Positions 3,841-43,810 of a DNA stretch of 64,000 nt are shown piece after piece. The notes under the pieces were generated by a model. It had not been told where the DNA came from. It searched no databases and saw only the letters and a program-made list of their open reading frames with translations. The stretch lies in contig OY282377.1 of NCBI GenBank assembly GCA_958295785.1, positions 1,936,394 through 2,000,393 on the forward strand, given 5' to 3'. This DNA is from an uncultured Latescibacterota bacterium (lineage in GTDB: Bacteria > Latescibacterota > UBA2968). A program made the translations under genes and the position numbers. Within the stretch, counting starts at the first letter, position 1. Every line of letters starts with the position of its first letter.

Positions 3841-5154
3841 TCAATAAACCTTGTCGTCATCGTCTCGCTTTTCGAGGGTATTTTTATTTTTTCGGCGTTC
3901 AGGAGACCCAGGGCCGCGCTCGATGAGTGTGTTGGGTTCGCCCTGTTGTTTGACCAGATCAAACGCATCGTAGAGTTCGCCAACCGCGGTCATCGCGCGG
4001 TAGTGCAAGGTGTTGCCCGAAACGGAAATGACTTGATAGAGTTGCGTGTTTTCCGCGCCGCGCGTCATCCAGCGGTCTTTTCTGAGGTCGGACTGTTTGG
4101 GGCCGCTGACCGAGACCACATAGACCGTGCCTTTGGTGGTGTCGCGCACGGTCACGCCGTTGCCGATGTTGTGGCCTCTGGCATAGGTATGGTCGTGCCC
4201 TTGAAGCACCATATCCACGGCGTATTTGTCGAAAAGGGGTTTCCACGCTTCGCGCAGGTCTTTGTTGTCGCGGCCTTTAGACGCCGAATAGACCGGGTGG
4301 TGAAATGTGACAAAGGTCCACGGATTGGGGTTGGTTGCGAGCACCTGTTCCAGCCATGGGGTTTGGTCTTCAATGCGTTCGTTGGAATTGAGTGAGATGA
4401 TGCGCGCGCCCTGATAGTCCGTGTAATACGTCGTTTCCGCAAGCCCTGTTGGCCCATTTTCGGGCAGGGTAAAATGCGGACGCCACAAAGTGGAAAGACG
4501 GCGTTTGCCCGCATCTTTGTCGTATTCGTGATTCCCCGGCGTAGGTATGCTGGGGATTTTTGCGTGGATCCAATCGCCTGCTTTAAACCATTCCTGCCAT
4601 TCGCTGTCCCTGTTGGGCTTGTTGACCAAGTCGCCCGCGTGGATGATAAAATCGGCATCGGGTGCGTCGAGCATGGCGGTGCGAATGGTGCGCGCCCAAA
4701 GCGCGAGCAAATTGTTTTGCGCGTCGCCAAAGTAGATAAAGGTGAAAGAATCGGGTTTTGCCGAGGCCGTGCGAAATTGATACCACGAACTCCAGATTTT
4801 GCCACTGCCCACGCGATAGGCATAGTGCGTATTGGGTTTGAGGCCCTCGAATGTGACCGAATGAAAATGCGCGGCATAGCCATTGCGTGTCCATTTTTCC
4901 GTGCGCGCTTCTTCGCGCTTGGCCCATGTGACAAAATTGGGCGACGCATCGGCTTCTGCGATCTGCCCCTCGGCCTTTGTGATGTGCGTATCGGTGCGCC
5001 AGGTGACCGATGCCGCGGTGGCGGGATCGCCCGACCAGTTGAGGACAATGCGGTCGGGAATTTGCGTGGGCACGGAATTGACCGCCGCGCGGTGATAGTC
5101 ATGCGCGCAAGCCGCCAGGCATGCGATCAAAAGCAGAAAAACGAGACGGGCCAT
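3841..5154 (-). CDS. Purple acid phosphatase-like metallophosphoesterase lipoprotein
   Basis: A 437-aa protein with a lipoprotein signal, MARLVFLLLIACLAAC (lipobox LAAC), so it should be anchored in an envelope membrane. A fibronectin III-like segment follows (about residues 30-125), then the calcineurin-like phosphoesterase domain with the full metal-ligand series: GDAQ, GDLV, GNHE, a His in FHHPVY, and GHDH. This order matches bacterial purple acid phosphatases, which release phosphate from esters outside the cytoplasm. The start is the ATG behind TTGGAGAAC. The C-terminal tail is lysine- and aspartate-rich and ends next to the Uma2 relic, so the last residues may have been altered by that rearrangement. 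Confidence 0.87.
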   Translation of the reverse strand: MARLVFLLLIACLAACAHDYHRAAVNSVPTQIPDRIVLNWSGDPATAASVTWRTDTHITKAEGQIAEADASPNFVTWAKREEARTEKWTRNGYAAHFHSVTFEGLKPNTHYAYRVGSGKIWSSWYQFRTASAKPDSFTFIYFGDAQNNLLALWARTIRTAMLDAPDADFIIHAGDLVNKPNRDSEWQEWFKAGDWIHAKIPSIPTPGNHEYDKDAGKRRLSTLWRPHFTLPENGPTGLAETTYYTDYQGARIISLNSNERIEDQTPWLEQVLATNPNPWTFVTFHHPVYSASKGRDNKDLREAWKPLFDKYAVDMVLQGHDHTYARGHNIGNGVTVRDTTKGTVYVVSVSGPKQSDLRKDRWMTRGAENTQLYQVISVSGNTLHYRAMTAVGELYDAFDLVKQQGEPNTLIERGPGSPERRKNKNTLEKRDDDDKVY

Positions 5155-5571: not shown

Positions 5572-6738
5572 ATGGTACACTATGATCGGCGTCTAAAAAT
5601 CGATTTGCCCGGCCGACAATCGGCATTTTTGTGGGGACCGCGCAAAACGGGCAAATCCACCTATCTCAAAGCGGCCTTTCCCAACAGCTTGGTCTATGAT
5701 TTTTTGAAGACAGATCTGATGCTGGATTTCAACCGGCGGCCGGCCCTGTTGCGCGAGCAACTTTTCGCACAGCCCGATGACGTGTTGGCGCGTCCGATTA
5801 TTTTGGACGAGGTGCAGCGCGTGCCGCTCGTGTTGGACGAAGTGCATTGGCTCATCGAAAACAAGGGGTTGCGTTTTATCCTGTGTGGGTCCAGTGCGCG
5901 AAAGCTCAAGCGGGGACGGGCGAATTTGCTCGGCGGGCGGGCGTGGCGATACGAGATGTTTCCGCTGGTGACAGATGAGTTGCCCGATGGCGATGTGGAT
6001 CTGTTGACCATTTTGAATCGCGGGCTGATTCCCGATCATTTTGCCACCGCGCAATACCGCCGTTCCCTGAATGCCTATTTGCAAGATTACTTAAAAGAGG
6101 AGGTTTTTGCCGAGGGGTTGACGCGCAATATCCCGGCATTTTCCCGATTTTTTGACGCGCTTGGGTACACGCACGGCGAGTTGACCAATTTTTCCAATAT
6201 CGCACGGGAGTGCGGCGCGAGTTCCAAAACCGTGAAGGAGTATTATCAGATTCTCGTGGATACGCTTTTGGGGCGCGTGGTCGAACCCTTCAAAAGACGC
6301 CAAAATCGCCAAGTTATTTCCAAAGCGTCCAAGTTCTATTTGTTCGATGTGGGGGTGGCTGGCGCGCTTGCGAAACGGCATTTGCAAGACGCGCACGGCG
6401 CGATTTTTGGCAAGGCATTTGAGCACTTTATTTTGACCGAACTGGCGGCACACGCTTCTTATGGCGCGTTGAATTACGACATTCATTTTTGGCGCACCAA
6501 GTCGGGGTTGGAGGTCGATTTTGTGCTGGGCAATGGCGAGGTGGCCCTCGAGGTCAAGGGCGCGAGTCGGGTAGATAACAAAGCCCTTCGGCCCTTGCGC
6601 GCATTTATCGAGGAATACGCGCCCAAAAAAGCCCTCGTGGTTTGCAATGAAACCGCAGAACGCAAGGTTGGCCCCATTCGCATTGTCCCATGGAAAATAT
6701 TTCTGCAATCGCTATGGGCAGACGAGGTGATTTCGTGA
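5572..6738 (+). CDS. AAA ATPase with DUF4143 C-terminus
   Basis: A 388-aa protein of the AAA_14/DUF4143 family. The Walker A motif GPRKTGKST lies at residues 22-30 and Walker B is IILDEV with Asp79-Glu80; a sensor-like FILCGSS follows. The C-terminal DUF4143 part ends with the nuclease-like pattern LEVDFVL...VALEVKG. The family is widespread and multicopy. A DNA-related or mobile role is often suspected but has not been established. GGAGGA (5557-5562) sets the ATG. The promoter carries an operator-like dyad. The 3' end overlaps the convergent deaminase gene by 27 bases. Confidence 0.88.
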   Translation: MVHYDRRLKIDLPGRQSAFLWGPRKTGKSTYLKAAFPNSLVYDFLKTDLMLDFNRRPALLREQLFAQPDDVLARPIILDEVQRVPLVLDEVHWLIENKGLRFILCGSSARKLKRGRANLLGGRAWRYEMFPLVTDELPDGDVDLLTILNRGLIPDHFATAQYRRSLNAYLQDYLKEEVFAEGLTRNIPAFSRFFDALGYTHGELTNFSNIARECGASSKTVKEYYQILVDTLLGRVVEPFKRRQNRQVISKASKFYLFDVGVAGALAKRHLQDAHGAIFGKAFEHFILTELAAHASYGALNYDIHFWRTKSGLEVDFVLGNGEVALEVKGASRVDNKALRPLRAFIEEYAPKKALVVCNETAERKVGPIRIVPWKIFLQSLWADEVIS

Positions 6739-36453: not shown

Positions 36454-36468
36454 ACAAGGAGGATGATC

Positions 36469-37587
36469 GTGAAAAAGTACATTTTGATCGCGCTCTGTGC
36501 ATTGTGCGTGGGCCTGATGCCGAGCGATGGATTTGCCCAAGGGAGCGTCGCCACCGACGTGACCGACAATTTCGATGGCCGCACCCGCGAACTGGATCCG
36601 GTCGTTCCGGGGTTTGAAGAAGCCGCGCCCACGTTTATCAAGTCCGGGCAGGCCGGATTTGCATTCCTGTCCATTCCCACAGACGCTCGCACCGCAGCTT
36701 TGGGCGGGGCCGGCGTGGGGTTGATCGGCAGCGGGGCGTCCATGTTGTACAACCCGGGCGCGCTGGCCTTCATGGAGGGTCGGGAAGCGTATGTCACGTA
36801 CGTGGATTGGCTCGTGGATACCAAGAGCTACGTGGCGGGCGTTGCCGTCAATGTGCCGGGCAGAGGAACGTTCGGGCTTTCAATTGTGAACTACGATGCT
36901 GGCAATTTTAACCGCACGTCTATCGATCCAAACCCCGCGGGGCAAGGGTACAAAGACGAGGGCACGTTCACGACCAGCAATTACGCCATTTCCGGCGCTT
37001 ACGGGCTTAAAATTACGGACCGGTTTTCAGCAGGTGCCACCCTCAGATTTGCCCATCAGGACCTGGGTACTGGGAATATTTTTCTCGGTGGCAGCCAGCA
37101 GACAGTCGATAATTCCAAAAATGCCTTTGCCTTTGATCTCGGCACGTATTTCAATACGGGCTTCCGCAATACGGTGATGGCGATGAGCGTGCAAAACTTC
37201 AGCACGGAGGTCGTTTATCAGCGGGAGCAGTTTGAGTTGCCTAGGAATATCCGCTTGGGCTTGCTCGTCGATGTGATTTCGATGATGGGCAACACGCCCG
37301 TGCCGCATCACTTTGACTTGGCCTTAGACGTGAACAATCCCATTGATTTTGACGAGCGCATTCACATCGGCGCGGAATATACGTACCGCGCTGCCGGTGC
37401 CTCGTTTGGGTTTTCGCTGCGCGGTGGGTACAAGACCAACCACGATACAGAGAGTTTCTCCTTTGGTGGTGGGTTGCAGTTTAAGACCGAAGGCGGGCAG
37501 GGCGCGAAGGTGGATTATGCTTACAAGGCATTTAACACCGCTTTCTTCAGCGCGGTGCATATCCTCAGCGCTGCGGTCACTTTCTAA
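36469..37587 (+). CDS. PorV/PorQ family outer-membrane protein
   Basis: A 372-aa beta-barrel protein of the PorV/PorQ (UPF0164-like) family. PorV is the outer-membrane shuttle that receives type IX substrates in Bacteroidetes. A signal peptide ends near DGFA/Q, and the family's DARTAALGGAGVGLIGSGASMLYNPGALAF block follows. The start is decided by AAGGAGG at 36456-36462: the GTG at 36469 is six bases away, while an ATG at 36463 directly touches the Shine-Dalgarno. The last seven codons lie inside a 155-bp sequence duplicated at 38582. It probably works with the sorted protein encoded upstream. Confidence 0.85.
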   Translation: MKKYILIALCALCVGLMPSDGFAQGSVATDVTDNFDGRTRELDPVVPGFEEAAPTFIKSGQAGFAFLSIPTDARTAALGGAGVGLIGSGASMLYNPGALAFMEGREAYVTYVDWLVDTKSYVAGVAVNVPGRGTFGLSIVNYDAGNFNRTSIDPNPAGQGYKDEGTFTTSNYAISGAYGLKITDRFSAGATLRFAHQDLGTGNIFLGGSQQTVDNSKNAFAFDLGTYFNTGFRNTVMAMSVQNFSTEVVYQREQFELPRNIRLGLLVDVISMMGNTPVPHHFDLALDVNNPIDFDERIHIGAEYTYRAAGASFGFSLRGGYKTNHDTESFSFGGGLQFKTEGGQGAKVDYAYKAFNTAFFSAVHILSAAVTF

Positions 37588-37649
37588 CATCAGAGGTCGG
37601 GATACGGCGAGGATTTGCCCTTGCCTGCCCGCCCTGTGAACAGAAGCAC

Positions 37650-37685
37650 AACGGCGGAGGGACGCAATGTCCATCCGCCGTTTTT
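37650..37685 (+). terminator. Rho-independent terminator
   Basis: AACGGCGGA (37650-37658) and TCCGCCGTT (37674-37682), with inner GGAC/GTCC, followed by T5. It ends the receptor-secreted-PorV transcript. The same structure is repeated at 38664-38699. Confidence 0.88.
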
Positions 37686-37691
37686 CATGGC

Positions 37692-37720
37692 TTGACAGGG
37701 ATAAGGGGAAGGGGTATTGT
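37692..37720 (+). promoter_or_regulatory. Sigma-70-like promoter of the PIN cassette
   Basis: TTGACA (37692-37697), a 17-base spacer and TATTGT (37715-37720), about 35 bases before the first cassette gene. It is duplicated with the same hexamers and spacing at 38706-38734. Confidence 0.65.
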
Positions 37721-37756
37721 ATTTGTCCAATGCCCAAAAATCAAAGGAGACAGGTA

Positions 37757-38170
37757 ATGGGTATTTCGATCATTGATGTGTTGGAAACTGAGTGCGACGA
37801 ACTCGCGTTGGTGCAAGGACGACTCATGGAGGTGAACTGGGCTTGCGGCACAGCAGAGTTGCACCGCGAGCATGGGACGGTTGTGCCGTTGCGTTTTGAA
37901 CCTGCGCTAAACGACGCCATGCGTCGGCTGGCAATGCAGCACGTCGAGATCAGGGGGCGTGGTCGCTTTAACGACAATGACGAATGGGACATGGTTTGTG
38001 TCGATCAGATAACCGGCACGCGAGCATGGTCAAAGCCGTTCGACCTCGAGGCATTTCGCAACGATCCCAACCCAAAGGTATTCGACGCCAATAAACTGGT
38101 CGCCATTGACCTAACAGAAGAAGAGTGGGAGGCGTTTAACCGTGCGATATGCGAAGGACGCGATGCTTGA
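37757..38170 (+). CDS. Putative antitoxin partner of PIN toxin, unknown family
   Basis: A 137-aa protein that I do not recognise. The sequence is acidic and suggests a small beta-barrel first half (ALVQGRLMEVNWACGTAELHREHGTVVPLRF, VEIRGRGRFNDNDEWDMVCVDQIT), then a short helical C-terminus ending EEEWEAFNRAICEG. AAAGGAGA lies just ahead of the ATG at 37757; upstream in-frame ATGs fall within the promoter repeat and are rejected. The stop overlaps the start of the PIN gene (TGATG), the usual antitoxin-toxin order and coupling. The antitoxin role is therefore inferred from context only. Confidence 0.6.
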   Translation: MGISIIDVLETECDELALVQGRLMEVNWACGTAELHREHGTVVPLRFEPALNDAMRRLAMQHVEIRGRGRFNDNDEWDMVCVDQITGTRAWSKPFDLEAFRNDPNPKVFDANKLVAIDLTEEEWEAFNRAICEGRDA

Positions 38171-38583
38171 TGCTTACAATTTCTTCACCTATAGTTCTCG
38201 ATACCAGCGTCGTCTCAATATTCATGCGTCAAGAGGAGTCGGTTGCTTACTACCAAAATTGGACCCTGGGTCGACGTGCTGTCATTTCGTTTCAGACGCT
38301 GGAAGAGTTGTGGTTTGGCGCCTATAAAAGAGGCTGGGGCGACAGGCGGATAAATGATCTCAGGCAAAGTCTTGACCAATATGAGGTGGTGTGGCCCAAT
38401 TCTGATTTGGTGCGTATCTCTGCACACCTGCGTAGCGAACGGGAGCGTGCGGGACGCAGGCTAAATACAGGGGATGCGTGGATTGCCGCGACAGCACTGT
38501 TGTTAGAGTGTCCGCGCGCCTCAGATGATCGCGACTTCTCCAGCATTTCAGGCCTCGTGTTCATCACAGCACCGTCACCATAG
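38170..38583 (+). CDS. PIN-domain toxin, VapC-like
   Basis: A 137-aa PIN-domain protein, expected to be a Mg-dependent RNase. The acidic residues are in place: Asp11 in VLDTSVVSIF, Glu45 in QTLEELWFG, Asp102 in NTGDAWIAATALL, and Asp119/Asp122 in SDDRDFSSISGL. The start overlaps the preceding stop by one base (TGATG). The stop codon TAG at 38581-38583 runs into the second 155-bp repeat. Relatives of this type are VapC-like tRNA or rRNA nucleases; the target here cannot be told. Confidence 0.88.
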   Translation: MLTISSPIVLDTSVVSIFMRQEESVAYYQNWTLGRRAVISFQTLEELWFGAYKRGWGDRRINDLRQSLDQYEVVWPNSDLVRISAHLRSERERAGRRLNTGDAWIAATALLLECPRASDDRDFSSISGLVFITAPSP

Positions 38584-38735
38584 CGCTGCGGTCACTTTCT
38601 AACATCAGAGGCGGGATACGGCGAGGATTTGCCCTTGCCTGCCCGCCCTGTGAACAGAAGCACAACGGCGGAGGGACGCAATGTCCATCCGCCGTTTTTC
38701 ATGGCTTGACAGGTACGAGGGGAAGGGGTATTGTA
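38582..38735 (+). repeat. 155-bp direct repeat, copy 2
   Basis: Second copy of 37567-37721. It repeats the last codons of the PorV-like gene out of context, the terminator (38664-38699) and the promoter (38706-38734). Here the promoter points into the 3' end of the opposing TIR-like gene, so it would make antisense RNA. Confidence 0.92.
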
Positions 38736-38789: not shown

Positions 38790-39359
38790 CTACAAGTCTT
38801 GATCGAGGTTTAGACTTGTACAAAGCTGTGGCAGATCAGTGAAAAAAAGAGCATATCGGTCAAATATCCTTGAACCCCCTGGAATAATGACATCTCTTTC
38901 GGTGGTCGCGCTTCTCAACCAGTCTCTGACAACCGTTATTGTCCTGCGAATATCGCCACTGTGTGATCTAATATCTTGCCCTGCAATATCAGAACAGTAT
39001 TGTTGATAACGATATGGCTCTTTATCGAGTATCAGACATATCTTCTCTCGTTGCCTACCTTGACCAAATCTTCGCGCTCCTAAAAAAACACCTAACTCCA
39101 ACGGCATGTTGAATCTTGGGAGTGCCGAAGTGGGGTCAATTTCTGTTCTCGAAATATCGTGAATGCCAAACTTACATTCTTGAATAATGTCAAAATTTTT
39201 TTCAATTCTTACTTGTGCGCTATCATCCACTTCAAGAGCACACCGCGCCTTAAACCCACAATCGTGTACTGCAAAAATGATCGCATCAAAAAGTGCAGCA
39301 TAACCCGGGTCAAAGGGGCAATTGAGAAAAACATTTTGTTCGTATTCGGAAGATGGCAT
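38790..39359 (-). CDS. TIR/nucleoside deoxyribosyltransferase-like protein
   Basis: A 189-aa protein. I recognise an uncharacterised bacterial family with the run NVFLNCPFDPGYAALFDAIIF (residues 9-29), CGFKARCALEVDD (34-46), a KFGIHDISRTE block (63-73) and LPRFNMPLELGVFLGAR (80-96), then SDIAGQDI and a conserved VRDWL. The alternating beta/alpha pattern and the Glu88 in MPLELG recall the TIR and nucleoside 2-deoxyribosyltransferase folds, where such a Glu attacks the N-glycosidic bond of nucleosides or NAD. That function is inference. AAAGG precedes the ATG. A 54-aa gene ends six bases upstream. The region is visibly AT-richer than its neighbours, suggesting transfer. Confidence 0.65.
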   Translation of the reverse strand: MPSSEYEQNVFLNCPFDPGYAALFDAIIFAVHDCGFKARCALEVDDSAQVRIEKNFDIIQECKFGIHDISRTEIDPTSALPRFNMPLELGVFLGARRFGQGRQREKICLILDKEPYRYQQYCSDIAGQDIRSHSGDIRRTITVVRDWLRSATTERDVIIPGGSRIFDRYALFFTDLPQLCTSLNLDQDL

Positions 39360-39365
39360 CGGCCT

Positions 39366-39530
39366 TTACTTGTTCGGATGCAGAGTGGGAGCACTTTTAA
39401 GTATCTCGTATTTTATCTTCAGTCCTGCTGGACGATTTTCTTTTAGTTTTTTGGCTACCACTTCAACCTGCTCTCGGCTTACAGAGACAGATTTCTGGGC
39501 GTCTTTAATCACTCTTCGGCTTTTAGCCAC
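39366..39530 (-). CDS. 54-aa basic protein, operon partner of the TIR-like gene
   Basis: A short gene starting at GTG (39530) behind a near-perfect ribosome-binding site, AGGAGGTGATT (39534-39544). It encodes a lysine-rich helical protein opening MAKSRRVIKDAQKSVSVSRE and continuing with VEVVAKKLKENRP. Its stop is six bases before the ATG of the TIR-like gene, so the two are almost certainly cotranslated. I do not recognise it. A small DNA-binding or antitoxin-like regulator is possible but unproven. Confidence 0.65.
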   Translation of the reverse strand: MAKSRRVIKDAQKSVSVSREQVEVVAKKLKENRPAGLKIKYEILKSAPTLHPNK

Positions 39531-39717
39531 GGCAATCACCTCCTAATTTTTTGAAATATCAAAAGCGGATTTTTCAAATATACCTCTAAATTCTTATTCA
39601 TCAAGTTCAATCACCCTTCAATTTTGCCAAATTTTTTGGGGAATTACATACTTGCCAACCCTAACCTTTCTTGTTATATTTATCCAAGTTACAAGTTACG
39701 AATGAACAAGGGGGTGT

Positions 39718-40662
39718 ATGATGGCAAAGCAGCTTAGTTTCGTCGCGTTCACACAGAAGTTTGCCACGCCTGAAGCGTGTATTTTGCACCTTGAAAAGAT
39801 CCGCTTTAAGGATGGCGCGTCTTGTCCGCATTGTGGTAGTATGGGAAAAATCTATCGTCGTTCTGATTTGGCGTATAGGTGCTCGGATTGTGGGCGTAAT
39901 TTTCATATGATTTACGGAACGATGTTTGGCAAGTCTAAAATCAAGATGTTGCCTAAATGGTTCGCGGCAATATGGATTGAAACGAACCACTCAAAAGGTA
40001 TTTCAAGCGTTCAGTTGGCAAAAATGATCGGTACAACGCAAAAGACCGCTTGGTTTATGCTTCAAAGAATACGAAACGCTTTTGGCAACAAAGACGGTGA
40101 TGATGATGATTTTCTGTCTGGTATCGTTGAAATTGATGAAACCTACATCGGTGGGAAAGAAAAGAACAAACATAAATCCAAAAAGTTGAATGCGGGTCGC
40201 GGAACAGGAGGTAAATCGGTTGCTTTCGGAATGCGGGAAAAAGGGGAAGATGGTGAGGCAATGGCGGTTCATGTACAGGACGCAAAAGTGGCAACATGAC
40301 ACGAGAAGATGTTGAACCGGGTATTGACGGGCGCAACTATTCATGCAGACGAGAACCGCGCATACGGCGCATTGAGGGATGATTACGAAGTGGAACAAAT
40401 CAATCATTGTGCCGACGAATATGAACGCGATGGGGTCCATACAAACGCCATTGAGAGTTTGTGGGCACGGGTTAAGCGTGTCTATATGGGTATTCATCAC
40501 CACTGGTCAGACAAACACATGCAAAAGTACCTGAATGCTTGCGTGTTTCGCATCAATCGAAAAAAGGTTGATACCTTAAGTCGTGTTGATGAGATGTTGA
40601 ATATGGCGATGGGCGCCCGGTTGACTTACAAGCAACTTATAGCCAGTGAGGCGGTTGCATGA
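39718..40662 (+). pseudogene. IS1595 (ISXO2-like) transposase, nonsense-interrupted
   Basis: About 314 codons in one frame. The N-terminal zinc-ribbon (CPHCGSMGK...YRCSDCG, residues about 40-61) is followed by the DDE-type core IVEIDETYIGGKEKNKH, then HADENRAYGAL and HTNAIESLWARVKR, the usual acidic triad region of ISXO2-like transposases. A TGA at 40297-40299 stops translation after DAKVAT, and reading resumes in the same frame with no other lesion. The IS ends are intact, so the copy is recent but probably unable to move itself. AGGGGG lies just before the ATGATG start. Confidence 0.9.
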
Positions 40663-40869
40663 ACAACCTTTATGGCACAAGCGGGCGATATGGAAGTCAA
40701 CGGGACATCTTATCCACGCATGCAAATGTGATCCGTTCCTGAAAGACGCGAAGGAAAACGTTTTGAAACGTTAGATGTTAGGGGCAGGCATGCCCAAAAT
40801 CAGAGGTCGCTTGCATTCAACACCAAAAACCCGGGATTACTTTAACAAGAAGATTTAGGTTGTCAAGTA

Positions 40870-40875
40870 TATAAT
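40870..40875 (+). promoter_or_regulatory. TATAAT -10-like box in the IS right end
   Basis: The right terminal repeat reads GTATATAATTCCC outward, whereas the matching left end has GTATGTAATTCCC on its outward strand. The single change creates TATAAT 29 bases before the GTG start of the GWxTD gene. No good -35 is visible at 16-18 bases, so an outward promoter is only a possibility. Confidence 0.35.
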
Positions 40876-40903
40876 TCCCATTTTTTGGAAAGGGACGCGA
40901 TAG

Positions 40904-43810
40904 GTGAAAATTCTCCAACTCATATCCATGCTGCTTTGCGTTTTTTGCGGCACAATGCCCGCGGAGGGCGCGACGGTCTTGCTTGAGGATGGCACCGTGC
41001 TCAAGGGCGAGATTGTGTCCGAATCAGAGACAGAGGTCGTGATCAAGACGTCGATGGGTGAACTCAAGGTGGCGAAGTCGCTCATTAAGATGATAGAACA
41101 ACCCTCGCGCAAGGTCACAATTTTGCTCGCGGATGGCACGGTGCTCAAGGGCGAGATTGTATCCGAATCGGAAACAGAAGTCGCAATCGAGACGTCTATC
41201 GGCGAATTGCGGGTGGAACGGACGCTCATCAAAATGATCGAGCGAGAAGGGGAAGCGCGAGAGGCCGATAGGCAGATCGCCGAAGCGGAATTGCAAGCGA
41301 GTTTTGGGGAATTTGAAGATCAAGTGGCGGGTTTGATTTTGAAAGAGGTGGCCGATGCGGATACGGCTGCTTTTTACAAGGCATTGGATCGCAAAGCCAA
41401 AGGGCCATTTCTGGCGCGGTTTTGGCGGGGGCGCAATCCGCTGGTGCTGAAGTACTATTACGATTACCACTTTGGACGCCGCCATGTGACCGTATCCGAT
41501 GCGTATTTTGAGCGCGGGGATCTGATCCCCAAAAAATACACCACCCGAGCGCAGGCCCCAGATGAAAAGCAAGTCGCCGAGGCCGCCCGCATTTGCGACC
41601 GCATGCTGATTCTACACGCAGACGATGCGGTGGCGATGTGCGCGCTGGGCTATCTGCGCTTGGAACGAGACGATGTGAAGGTGGCCGAAGCACTCTTCTT
41701 GGACGCGATTAAAAAAAACAAAAAGTTCGTGGAAGCGCGCAATGGGCGGGCACTCGCGGCGTTGAAGATGCCGGGGCAAAAATCGCGGGCATTGCGCTTG
41801 TTTCGGGAAACCTGCGCGATGGACGAAAATTATGCGGCGGCCCACTACAATCTGGGGATGTGCCATCTGGCGATGGTGGGCATGGATCGCGTGGATCTGG
41901 ATTACTATTTTGGCAAGGTGACAGAGCGTTTTCCCAACCACTATGACGCCTATTTCAAGTTGGGGGTGTTTTACGAGTCCCTGCACTATTACGACAAGGC
42001 GATGAAAGCCTATTCGCGTCAGGTGGCGGTGAATCCCTCTCATCCCTTGACGCCTGCACGCTTGGCGCATGTGGCGATGCGCCTGAAAGCCGCGGGCGAG
42101 GAAACCTACAGCTTGGACGAATTGCAGGAAATGGCAAAGACAAAGCCGAAAGACTATCTGCCCCTGCTGGCGCAGACTTGTATTGAACGCGGGGATTTTG
42201 CCCAGGCGCAGGCGGCTTTTGGACGCTATTTTCAGTTTTTGGACCCGACGGAACGGGCGTATTACCAAGCCCTGTCGCTGGTGGCCCCCGCCGAAGTGCT
42301 GTCCAAGATGAAGGGCGCGTTTGGGCAGTCCCTGTCCCGGCTTCGGAAAGTTTTTTGGCTGGAGGTCGATCCCACGCCGACCACGCCGGTGAATGAACGC
42401 CGCGTGGAGCATTACCGTCGGGTGTATTTCGCGCGCTCAAATTTTGCCGAAGGCCTGGAGGAATGGCACGGCAGAGGGTGGGATCGCCGAGGCGATGTGT
42501 ACATTCGCTTGGGGCATCCCGACCATCGGAGTTGGTCGGATTATCTGGTGTTCGAGACCGACGAAAAGGTGGCGAAAGTAAAGAACCGCCTGAATATGAT
42601 CGCCGCAACCGCCTTGGATGAAGTGTTGCCGACCAAGCATGTACACGGGCAGTCGAGCGCGTCTTATGGCTATGGCGCCGGCCCCGAGACCGCCGACTTG
42701 CGGGGCGTGCCGACTTTTCCGGTGCCGCGCAGGCGCAGTGTGATGCGCGATGGATCGGAGTTGGGTTACAAGTGGGAATCGTGGATTTACGCTGAAATCG
42801 GCGGGGGAATCGAGATCACATTTTTGGATCCCACGGGCAGCGGTTTTTTTGATTTCGCGCCCATTCCCCCCAATTCGCCCAACCACGCGCTGTGGTCTCG
42901 CCTCGCGCCCGAAAGGGTGGTCGCCCAAGTCGTCAACCGCACGCCTTCGGTTTATCGGCATGACTACGGCGGCGACCCCATGGACTTTTACATGTACGCG
43001 GCGAATTTCCGCGCCTCCGAGCAAGAGGCCGATACGAATGTGGAAGTGTATATGGGCGTGCCCATCGCGGCATTGACCCCCGCGTCTCAAGGCGGAAAGT
43101 CTTACGCGATGCTCAACCGAGAGGTCGTGGTCTATGACCGATCCCTAAAGCCGGTTTTTCGAGACAGCGCGCAGGTGACAAAAGCCGTAAACGGGCAGGT
43201 GGAAAAGGAAATGCTGATGGTGGATCAGGTACGCGCTTCCCTGCCTCCGGGGCAATACTTCTTGACCGCTCAGGTGCGCGACCCCATCAGCCGAAAAATT
43301 CAGGCGCACAAGATGTATGTCACCGTGCCATCTTTCAGCGGTGACGCGCTATCGTTGAGCGATTTGGAATTGGCCGGGCAGATTGTCGAGGAAAAAGAAT
43401 CCACGCCGGCCGGGAAATTTCAAAAGGGTGACTTGCAAGTGGTGCCCCTGCCGTCCAAAACCTTTGCGAAGGCGCAGGCGGTTTATCTCTATTACGAAGT
43501 CTATAACTTGACTCGAGATGCGTTTGGGCAAACCCGCTACCGCGTCGAATACGCGCTTACAGGCGTGCAGAGCGCGGGTTCTCGCCTGATTCGAGGGCTG
43601 GGCAAATTGTTGGGCCAAACCCCGCAAGCCGATGGCGTGCAGATTTCTTATGAGCATACCGGAACGACCACATGGGAACCCCTCTACATCGCGCTGGACG
43701 TGCCGCAAGATAGCGAAGAACACTTGGAAATCGAGGTGGTGGTAACGGATTTGAACGCCCCGAACCAGCCCATTGTACGCAAGCGGGTTCAGTTTGCGGT
43801 GGGCAATTGA
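40904..43810 (+). CDS. GWxTD-domain TPR protein (second copy)
   Basis: A 968-aa exported protein starting at GTG (SD GGAAAGGGAC). Signal peptide about 1-22. Two tandem 47-residue modules follow (TVLLEDGTVLKGEIVSESET and ILLADGTVLKGEIVSESET), an internal duplication with SHOCT/DUF-like beta strands. TPR-like repeats (about 200-440) precede the GWxTD domain (VFWLEVDPTPTTPVNERRVEHYRRV, GWDRRGDVYIRLGHP at 525-539). The C-terminus parallels that of the copy at 27136, including VVPLPSKTF and YYEVYNLTRDAFGQTRYRV. Its promoter region was hit by an IS1595 insertion. Confidence 0.82.
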   Translation: MKILQLISMLLCVFCGTMPAEGATVLLEDGTVLKGEIVSESETEVVIKTSMGELKVAKSLIKMIEQPSRKVTILLADGTVLKGEIVSESETEVAIETSIGELRVERTLIKMIEREGEAREADRQIAEAELQASFGEFEDQVAGLILKEVADADTAAFYKALDRKAKGPFLARFWRGRNPLVLKYYYDYHFGRRHVTVSDAYFERGDLIPKKYTTRAQAPDEKQVAEAARICDRMLILHADDAVAMCALGYLRLERDDVKVAEALFLDAIKKNKKFVEARNGRALAALKMPGQKSRALRLFRETCAMDENYAAAHYNLGMCHLAMVGMDRVDLDYYFGKVTERFPNHYDAYFKLGVFYESLHYYDKAMKAYSRQVAVNPSHPLTPARLAHVAMRLKAAGEETYSLDELQEMAKTKPKDYLPLLAQTCIERGDFAQAQAAFGRYFQFLDPTERAYYQALSLVAPAEVLSKMKGAFGQSLSRLRKVFWLEVDPTPTTPVNERRVEHYRRVYFARSNFAEGLEEWHGRGWDRRGDVYIRLGHPDHRSWSDYLVFETDEKVAKVKNRLNMIAATALDEVLPTKHVHGQSSASYGYGAGPETADLRGVPTFPVPRRRSVMRDGSELGYKWESWIYAEIGGGIEITFLDPTGSGFFDFAPIPPNSPNHALWSRLAPERVVAQVVNRTPSVYRHDYGGDPMDFYMYAANFRASEQEADTNVEVYMGVPIAALTPASQGGKSYAMLNREVVVYDRSLKPVFRDSAQVTKAVNGQVEKEMLMVDQVRASLPPGQYFLTAQVRDPISRKIQAHKMYVTVPSFSGDALSLSDLELAGQIVEEKESTPAGKFQKGDLQVVPLPSKTFAKAQAVYLYYEVYNLTRDAFGQTRYRVEYALTGVQSAGSRLIRGLGKLLGQTPQADGVQISYEHTGTTTWEPLYIALDVPQDSEEHLEIEVVVTDLNAPNQPIVRKRVQFAVGN

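Follow-up and report, generated by a model that had tools for sequence, protein, structure and literature searches.

A toxin-antitoxin pair bracketed by long direct repeats of a gene border in a Latescibacterota chromosome

The cassette and repeats behind the PorV-type gene

We analysed a 64,000-nucleotide stretch, here called the window, from the genome of an uncultured Latescibacterota bacterium (GenBank assembly GCA_958295785.1, contig OY282377.1, positions 1,936,394 to 2,000,393 of the forward strand). Behind the gene of a PorV-type outer-membrane protein lies a toxin-antitoxin (TA) pair between two direct repeats, followed by two further insertions and the gene of a TPR protein. The features, numbered by their position in the window, are:

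36463-37587, + strand: PorV/PorQ-family outer-membrane protein gene, 3' end inside repeat copy 1 (NCBIfam PorV_fam, E=2.5e-50)
37567-37721, + strand: repeat copy 1, with the PorV-type gene end, a hairpin terminator and a promoter (by alignment; single in ten relatives)
37650-37685, + strand: intrinsic-terminator-like hairpin and U run of copy 1 (by folding; stem core kept in 11 genomes)
37692-37720, + strand: promoter TTGACA-17-TATTGT of copy 1 (both hexamers invariant in 11 genomes)
37757-38170, + strand: putative antitoxin gene, 137 aa, outside known families (with homologues that precede PIN genes at other loci of the genus)
38170-38583, + strand: PIN-domain (VapC-type) toxin gene (Pfam PIN, E=6.4e-16; junction compared with four homologues)
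38582-38735, + strand: repeat copy 2 (by alignment with copy 1)
38664-38699: intrinsic-terminator-like hairpin and U run of copy 2, counterpart of that in copy 1
38706-38734: promoter TTGACA-17-TATTGT of copy 2, counterpart of that in copy 1
38790-39539, - strand: two-gene block, inserted separately and not bracketed (it also follows the single repeat in two relatives, G005 and G006)
39627-40888, + strand: IS1595-type element, ends placed by eye, outside the bracket (Pfam DDE_Tnp_IS1595)
40904-43810, + strand: TPR-protein gene, downstream of the repeat's promoter in most relatives

The two direct repeats were aligned over 155 columns with 97.4% identity, with three mismatches and one one-base gap, and a search of the whole genome, a complete single-contig chromosome of 5.66 Mb, returned matches to the repeat at these two sites only. 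A preliminary description of the locus had given exactly these positions and had placed the end of the PorV gene, a strong terminator and a TTGACA-17-TATTGT promoter within the repeat. All three were recovered, the terminator by folding and the promoter by a scan. The hairpin was missed by a simple terminator scan and was recognised by its fold (-22.9 kcal/mol, z -5.3), with the U stretch directly after it. In an alignment of 11 genomes the best-conserved stretch of the PorV intergenic region was made up of the hairpin stem, the T run and the promoter hexamers. Judging by this conservation of the core across the genus, PorV transcription probably ends within copy 1 and the TA pair is probably expressed from the promoter of this copy, and the earlier proposal that copy 1 insulates and drives the cassette is plausible.

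Only the two TA genes were found between the repeat copies, and a recombinase gene is absent there. The most likely start codon of the toxin gene, ATG at 38170, overlaps the stop codon of the antitoxin gene. Copy 2 had been described as beginning at the toxin stop, which is right for the location and can be refined: the stop codon (TAG, 38581-38583) is completed across the junction, with T from the cassette and only AG from copy 2.

NCBIfam VapC models matched the PIN toxin, but only below their cut-offs. For the putative antitoxin no family match was obtained in Pfam, PADLOC or NCBIfam, and its structure model (mean pLDDT 39) was too poor for use. In several congeners the protein is extended at the N-terminus (242 aa in L069). 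The arrangement resembles VapBC type II systems in that a small gene is directly followed, and overlapped, by the PIN toxin gene, and in the presence of several paralogous loci. It differs in that the upstream protein has no match to a known antitoxin or DNA-binding family and has an N-terminally extended form in several relatives. We do not claim membership of VapBC, because the upstream partner is outside the described antitoxin families and the toxin alone is VapC-like.

Empty sites and the order of insertions

Each of the ten other genomes of the genus has an orthologue of the PorV-type gene, with one repeat copy and no TA pair at the locus. The preliminary description had named such empty sites as the thing to look for, and had named diverged double copies in every relative as evidence of an old simple duplication; the copies are single in all ten. 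In a more distant clade the repeat was recognisable only as its hairpin-promoter half. In most relatives the promoter of the repeat runs straight into the TPR gene (40904 in the window). Two genomes, G005 and G006, have a two-gene block behind the single repeat (about 81% DNA identity), and the same block is found behind copy 2 in the window. The locus in G005 (L013) reads PorV, repeat, two-gene block, TPR, with both the TA pair and the IS1595-type element absent.

The family of the two-gene block is not known, and the PorV border seems to have been used repeatedly as an insertion spot. In the IS1595-type element the transposase is open in two pieces, and the element ends shortly before the ribosome-binding site of the TPR gene.

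Copies 1 and 2 have nine substitutions in common that are absent from the five nearest relatives, while the differences between them amount to three substitutions and one base. These relatives have 88-89% identity in the PorV-type protein, and the comparison is one between species, not strains. Because both copies carry the nine private substitutions and differ so little from each other, the duplication is, as judged from the alignment, recent, later than the divergence from the nearest relatives and built from sequence of the own lineage. The data fit an order of events in which PorV-repeat-TPR was the starting state, the two-gene block was gained next in some lineages, and the TA pair with its duplication and the IS1595-type element were gained last, in either order, in the lineage of the window.

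It had also been proposed that recombination between the copies would delete the TA pair and restore the host locus. This does not hold for the ancestral PorV-promoter-TPR arrangement, because two further insertions lie downstream and part copy 2 from the original gene; deletion would leave PorV-repeat-(two-gene block)-IS1595-TPR.

Bracketed cassettes at other loci

The suggestion that the genome may hold other cassettes bracketed by duplicated host terminator-promoter segments was borne out in part. Further bracketed cassettes were found, with a duplicated unit that is not always a terminator-promoter segment; it can also be the 3' end or the start of a gene, or a leader. In the own genome a MazE/AbrB-type antitoxin and PIN pair lies between 133-bp copies in which a CysH-like gene ends and the following TA pair begins, and an antitoxin-PIN pair together with an IS lies between 153-bp copies that reach from the end of one gene into the next. 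An N6/N4 methylase gene (L124) is flanked by the end of an LplA-like gene in two 47-bp copies; the second copy and the methylase gene are both absent in ten relatives. An array at L095:5828-10638 consists of a PIN gene, a leader, an AlbA_2/Schlafen-type gene, a leader, an AAA ATPase gene, a leader and gatC, the three leaders being copies of the gatC leader of 134-178 bp. One gatC leader copy is present in G009, where the ATPase is absent.

In the second complete genome, G008, hisB and gmhB are separated by an antitoxin-PIN pair, with a 112-bp duplication of 98.2% identity, and the four relatives checked in which hisB and gmhB are adjacent have one copy and no TA pair there. The same genome has a Phd-type gene within a duplicated gatC start. 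The duplications at these other loci (47, 112, 133, 134-178 and 153 bp) are unrelated in sequence and different at each locus. The duplicated unit usually spans a gene border, and the neighbouring genes retain an intact copy.

Closely similar DUF2281-type/PIN cassettes, whose ends are the same, lie between hisB and gmhB in G008 and behind gmhB in G004 (L233:3888-4618 (-), L264:2700-3242). Since one antitoxin-PIN cassette has identical ends at two junctions in these two genomes, the cassettes do, to judge by their ends, move as units. Homologues of the window cassette elsewhere in the genus, including a second homologue in the own genome, are mostly without flanking repeats, and a long duplication is thus not obligatory.

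The frequency of bracketing was determined in sampled stretches of the own genome (1.58 Mb, about 28% of the genome). Three of 15 PIN genes were bracketed by a locus-specific repeat pair, as compared to 3.3% of random gene-sized intervals (P 0.012), and six of 15 were bracketed or adjacent to one, as compared to 7.5% (P 0.0005); both P values apply to the 28% sample and count two neighbouring PIN genes with one common repeat pair as independent. Adjacent genes alone made up three of 15 versus 4.3%. We take the enrichment of PIN genes as an indication, not proof. In G008, 3/26 PIN genes were bracketed versus none in a 300-kb control, one of the three being a hairpin before paralogous TA pairs that was discounted.

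Some repeats or regions near PIN or methylase genes are of another kind or were left out of the series. A PIN locus (L092) was excluded from the series, as its 111-118-bp repeats belong to a MITE-like element that has inverted ends and more than 50 further matches in the sample. The copies of this element are at L092:2422-2532, 3948-4063 and 5951-6068, with the inverted ends TAAGAAGCCCTAACA, and the further matches were counted in the sampled 1.58 Mb. A short GC-rich dispersed repeat (CGGGCGAGCACGGGGGCATCGCCCCTACG) with more than 100 matches in the sample was seen at L096:9051-9100 and L097:1454-1516. A 43-bp pair at 5.22 Mb in G008 was rejected as a target duplication, since it is a hairpin that precedes two paralogous TA pairs. 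At L134 a methylase region lies downstream of a topoisomerase-like gene and is present there in five relatives too, and at L079 and L072 repeated pieces of AbrB/PIN genes surround the cassette in a heavily rearranged form.

Origin of the duplication and relation to known systems

We consider it highly probable, from the comparison with the relatives, that the TA cassette was inserted behind the PorV-type gene in the own lineage and that the 155-bp target was left in two copies. The main rival to this reading is that a circular DNA with the TA pair and one repeat, originating in a different strain of the same or a close species, recombined homologously with the resident single repeat. The four differing positions between the copies could then be a strain difference instead of later mutation, and the three gatC leader copies that part different cassettes resemble such exchange. 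However, given the shared private substitutions the donor must have been of the same lineage, no congener has a homologue of the TA pair beside the window repeat, and the origin of the first repeat-flanked cassette is left unexplained. As the source of the bracket at the PorV locus we regard the circle as unlikely; recombination of this type could act in later spread.

An improbable account is one in two steps, with a tandem duplication of the 155-bp unit and a later insertion of the TA pair between the copies. Tandem duplications are common in bacteria and such a course is compatible with all sequences examined, but no genome with two tandem copies lacking the cassette was found, and the coincidence would be needed anew at each of the several loci, with their different targets, where the bracketed anatomy recurs. 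The antitoxin-PIN cassette with the same ends at two junctions in two species could point to a dedicated site-specific mobile element, with a recombinase acting in trans on the target and the cassette ends. Against this stand the targets without a common sequence, the differing duplication lengths and the absence of a recombinase gene from the bracket, which make such an element very improbable. Direct repeats are a recognised cause of misassembly, but an assembly or chimera artefact is hardly credible for copies that differ at four positions in a single-contig genome, with similar structures in an independent complete genome.

Insertion with duplication of the target is thus the reading that we prefer. 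The cassette is a compact unit of a ribosome-binding site, the antitoxin gene and the PIN RNase gene, with almost nothing past the stop codon. For its arrival we favour a one-step duplication at a DNA break, through repair synthesis or through template switching, without a dedicated recombinase, because no recombinase is carried, the targets are unrelated and the repeat lengths range from 47 to 178 bp. The chances of this proposal appear to us about even. The copies could have arisen from filled-in staggered ends or from copying that resumed 155 bp upstream. Once in place, copy 1 would end PorV transcription and then start the TA mRNA. Recombination or slippage between the copies could remove the TA pair and return the locus to the state just before its arrival; a toxin that persists longer than its antitoxin would work against such loss.

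A wider generalisation is offered tentatively, as possible but doubtful. The genus may gain TA, methylase and defence-type genes largely by recombinase-free repair that duplicates about 50-180 bp of gene-border DNA, each insertion sparing both host genes and carrying its own deletion handle. A border that is used again, such as the gatC leader with its three copies, would then build integron-like arrays run by homologous recombination.

The cases bear on the question of how chromosomal TA pairs can move where no mobile element carries them. In this genus the reference chromosome is complete, insertions can be dated, and empty sites and several parallel cases are at hand, so that the junctions can be studied as a series. 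The findings suggest a route by which such genes may enter bacterial gene borders with the neighbours unbroken, and they link TA pairs with restriction-modification genes, whose mode was described in 2000.

The locus is unlike a transposon or integron, as there is no own recombinase in the bracket and the repeats are host sequence, specific to the locus. In the minimal mobile elements of Neisseria, homologous recombination in the flanking DNA exchanges small accessory genes that lie between fixed host genes; the likeness lies in the small accessory genes between host genes, and the difference in the target duplication, which is not known from those elements. IS elements and composite transposons also stand between direct duplications, but those of IS elements are a few bp long (8-10 bp for IS1 and 4 bp for IS5; PMC3031569), whereas the bracket here is without a transposase and the IS1595-type element lies outside it. 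Transposed genes of Arabidopsis (PMC2869330) are likewise flanked by direct repeats of host non-transposon sequence, often at an orthologous empty site, but in a eukaryote and without TA cargo.

The closest likeness is to insertion with long target duplication, as described for restriction-modification genes in Helicobacter (Nobusato et al. 2000, with Furuta et al. 2010 as a further source, both as relayed in PMC1643837, PMC3874152, PMC3031569 and PMC4978471). In a 2013 review the mode is given for restriction-modification systems, and the duplications are put at around 100 bp. In both cases a polymorphic unit lies between direct repeats of a host target of around 100 bp and of variable length, the event is recurrent within one genome, and the empty genome keeps a single target copy, as do 10/10 congeners here. 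A DNA-methylase cargo is also found, at L124 of the own genome. The single-copy empty site, the host-derived variable repeat and the near-identical copies are thus all present at the PorV locus, whereas the cargo there is a TA pair and not a restriction-modification system, a cargo that is typical of the mode and not strictly defining. Further differences are the phylum, Latescibacterota as compared to Helicobacter, and the comparison of species here in place of strains. In the open literature we found neither long target duplication for TA pairs nor TA pairs at empty sites with direct repeats, which is weak evidence. The preliminary description had seen at this locus a neat integration mode by duplication of a host intergenic unit; the insertion was, on our reading, accompanied by such a duplication, but the mode is not a new one. 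The anatomy matches the mode already described, and what appears to be new here is the TA cargo, the phylum and the recurrence.
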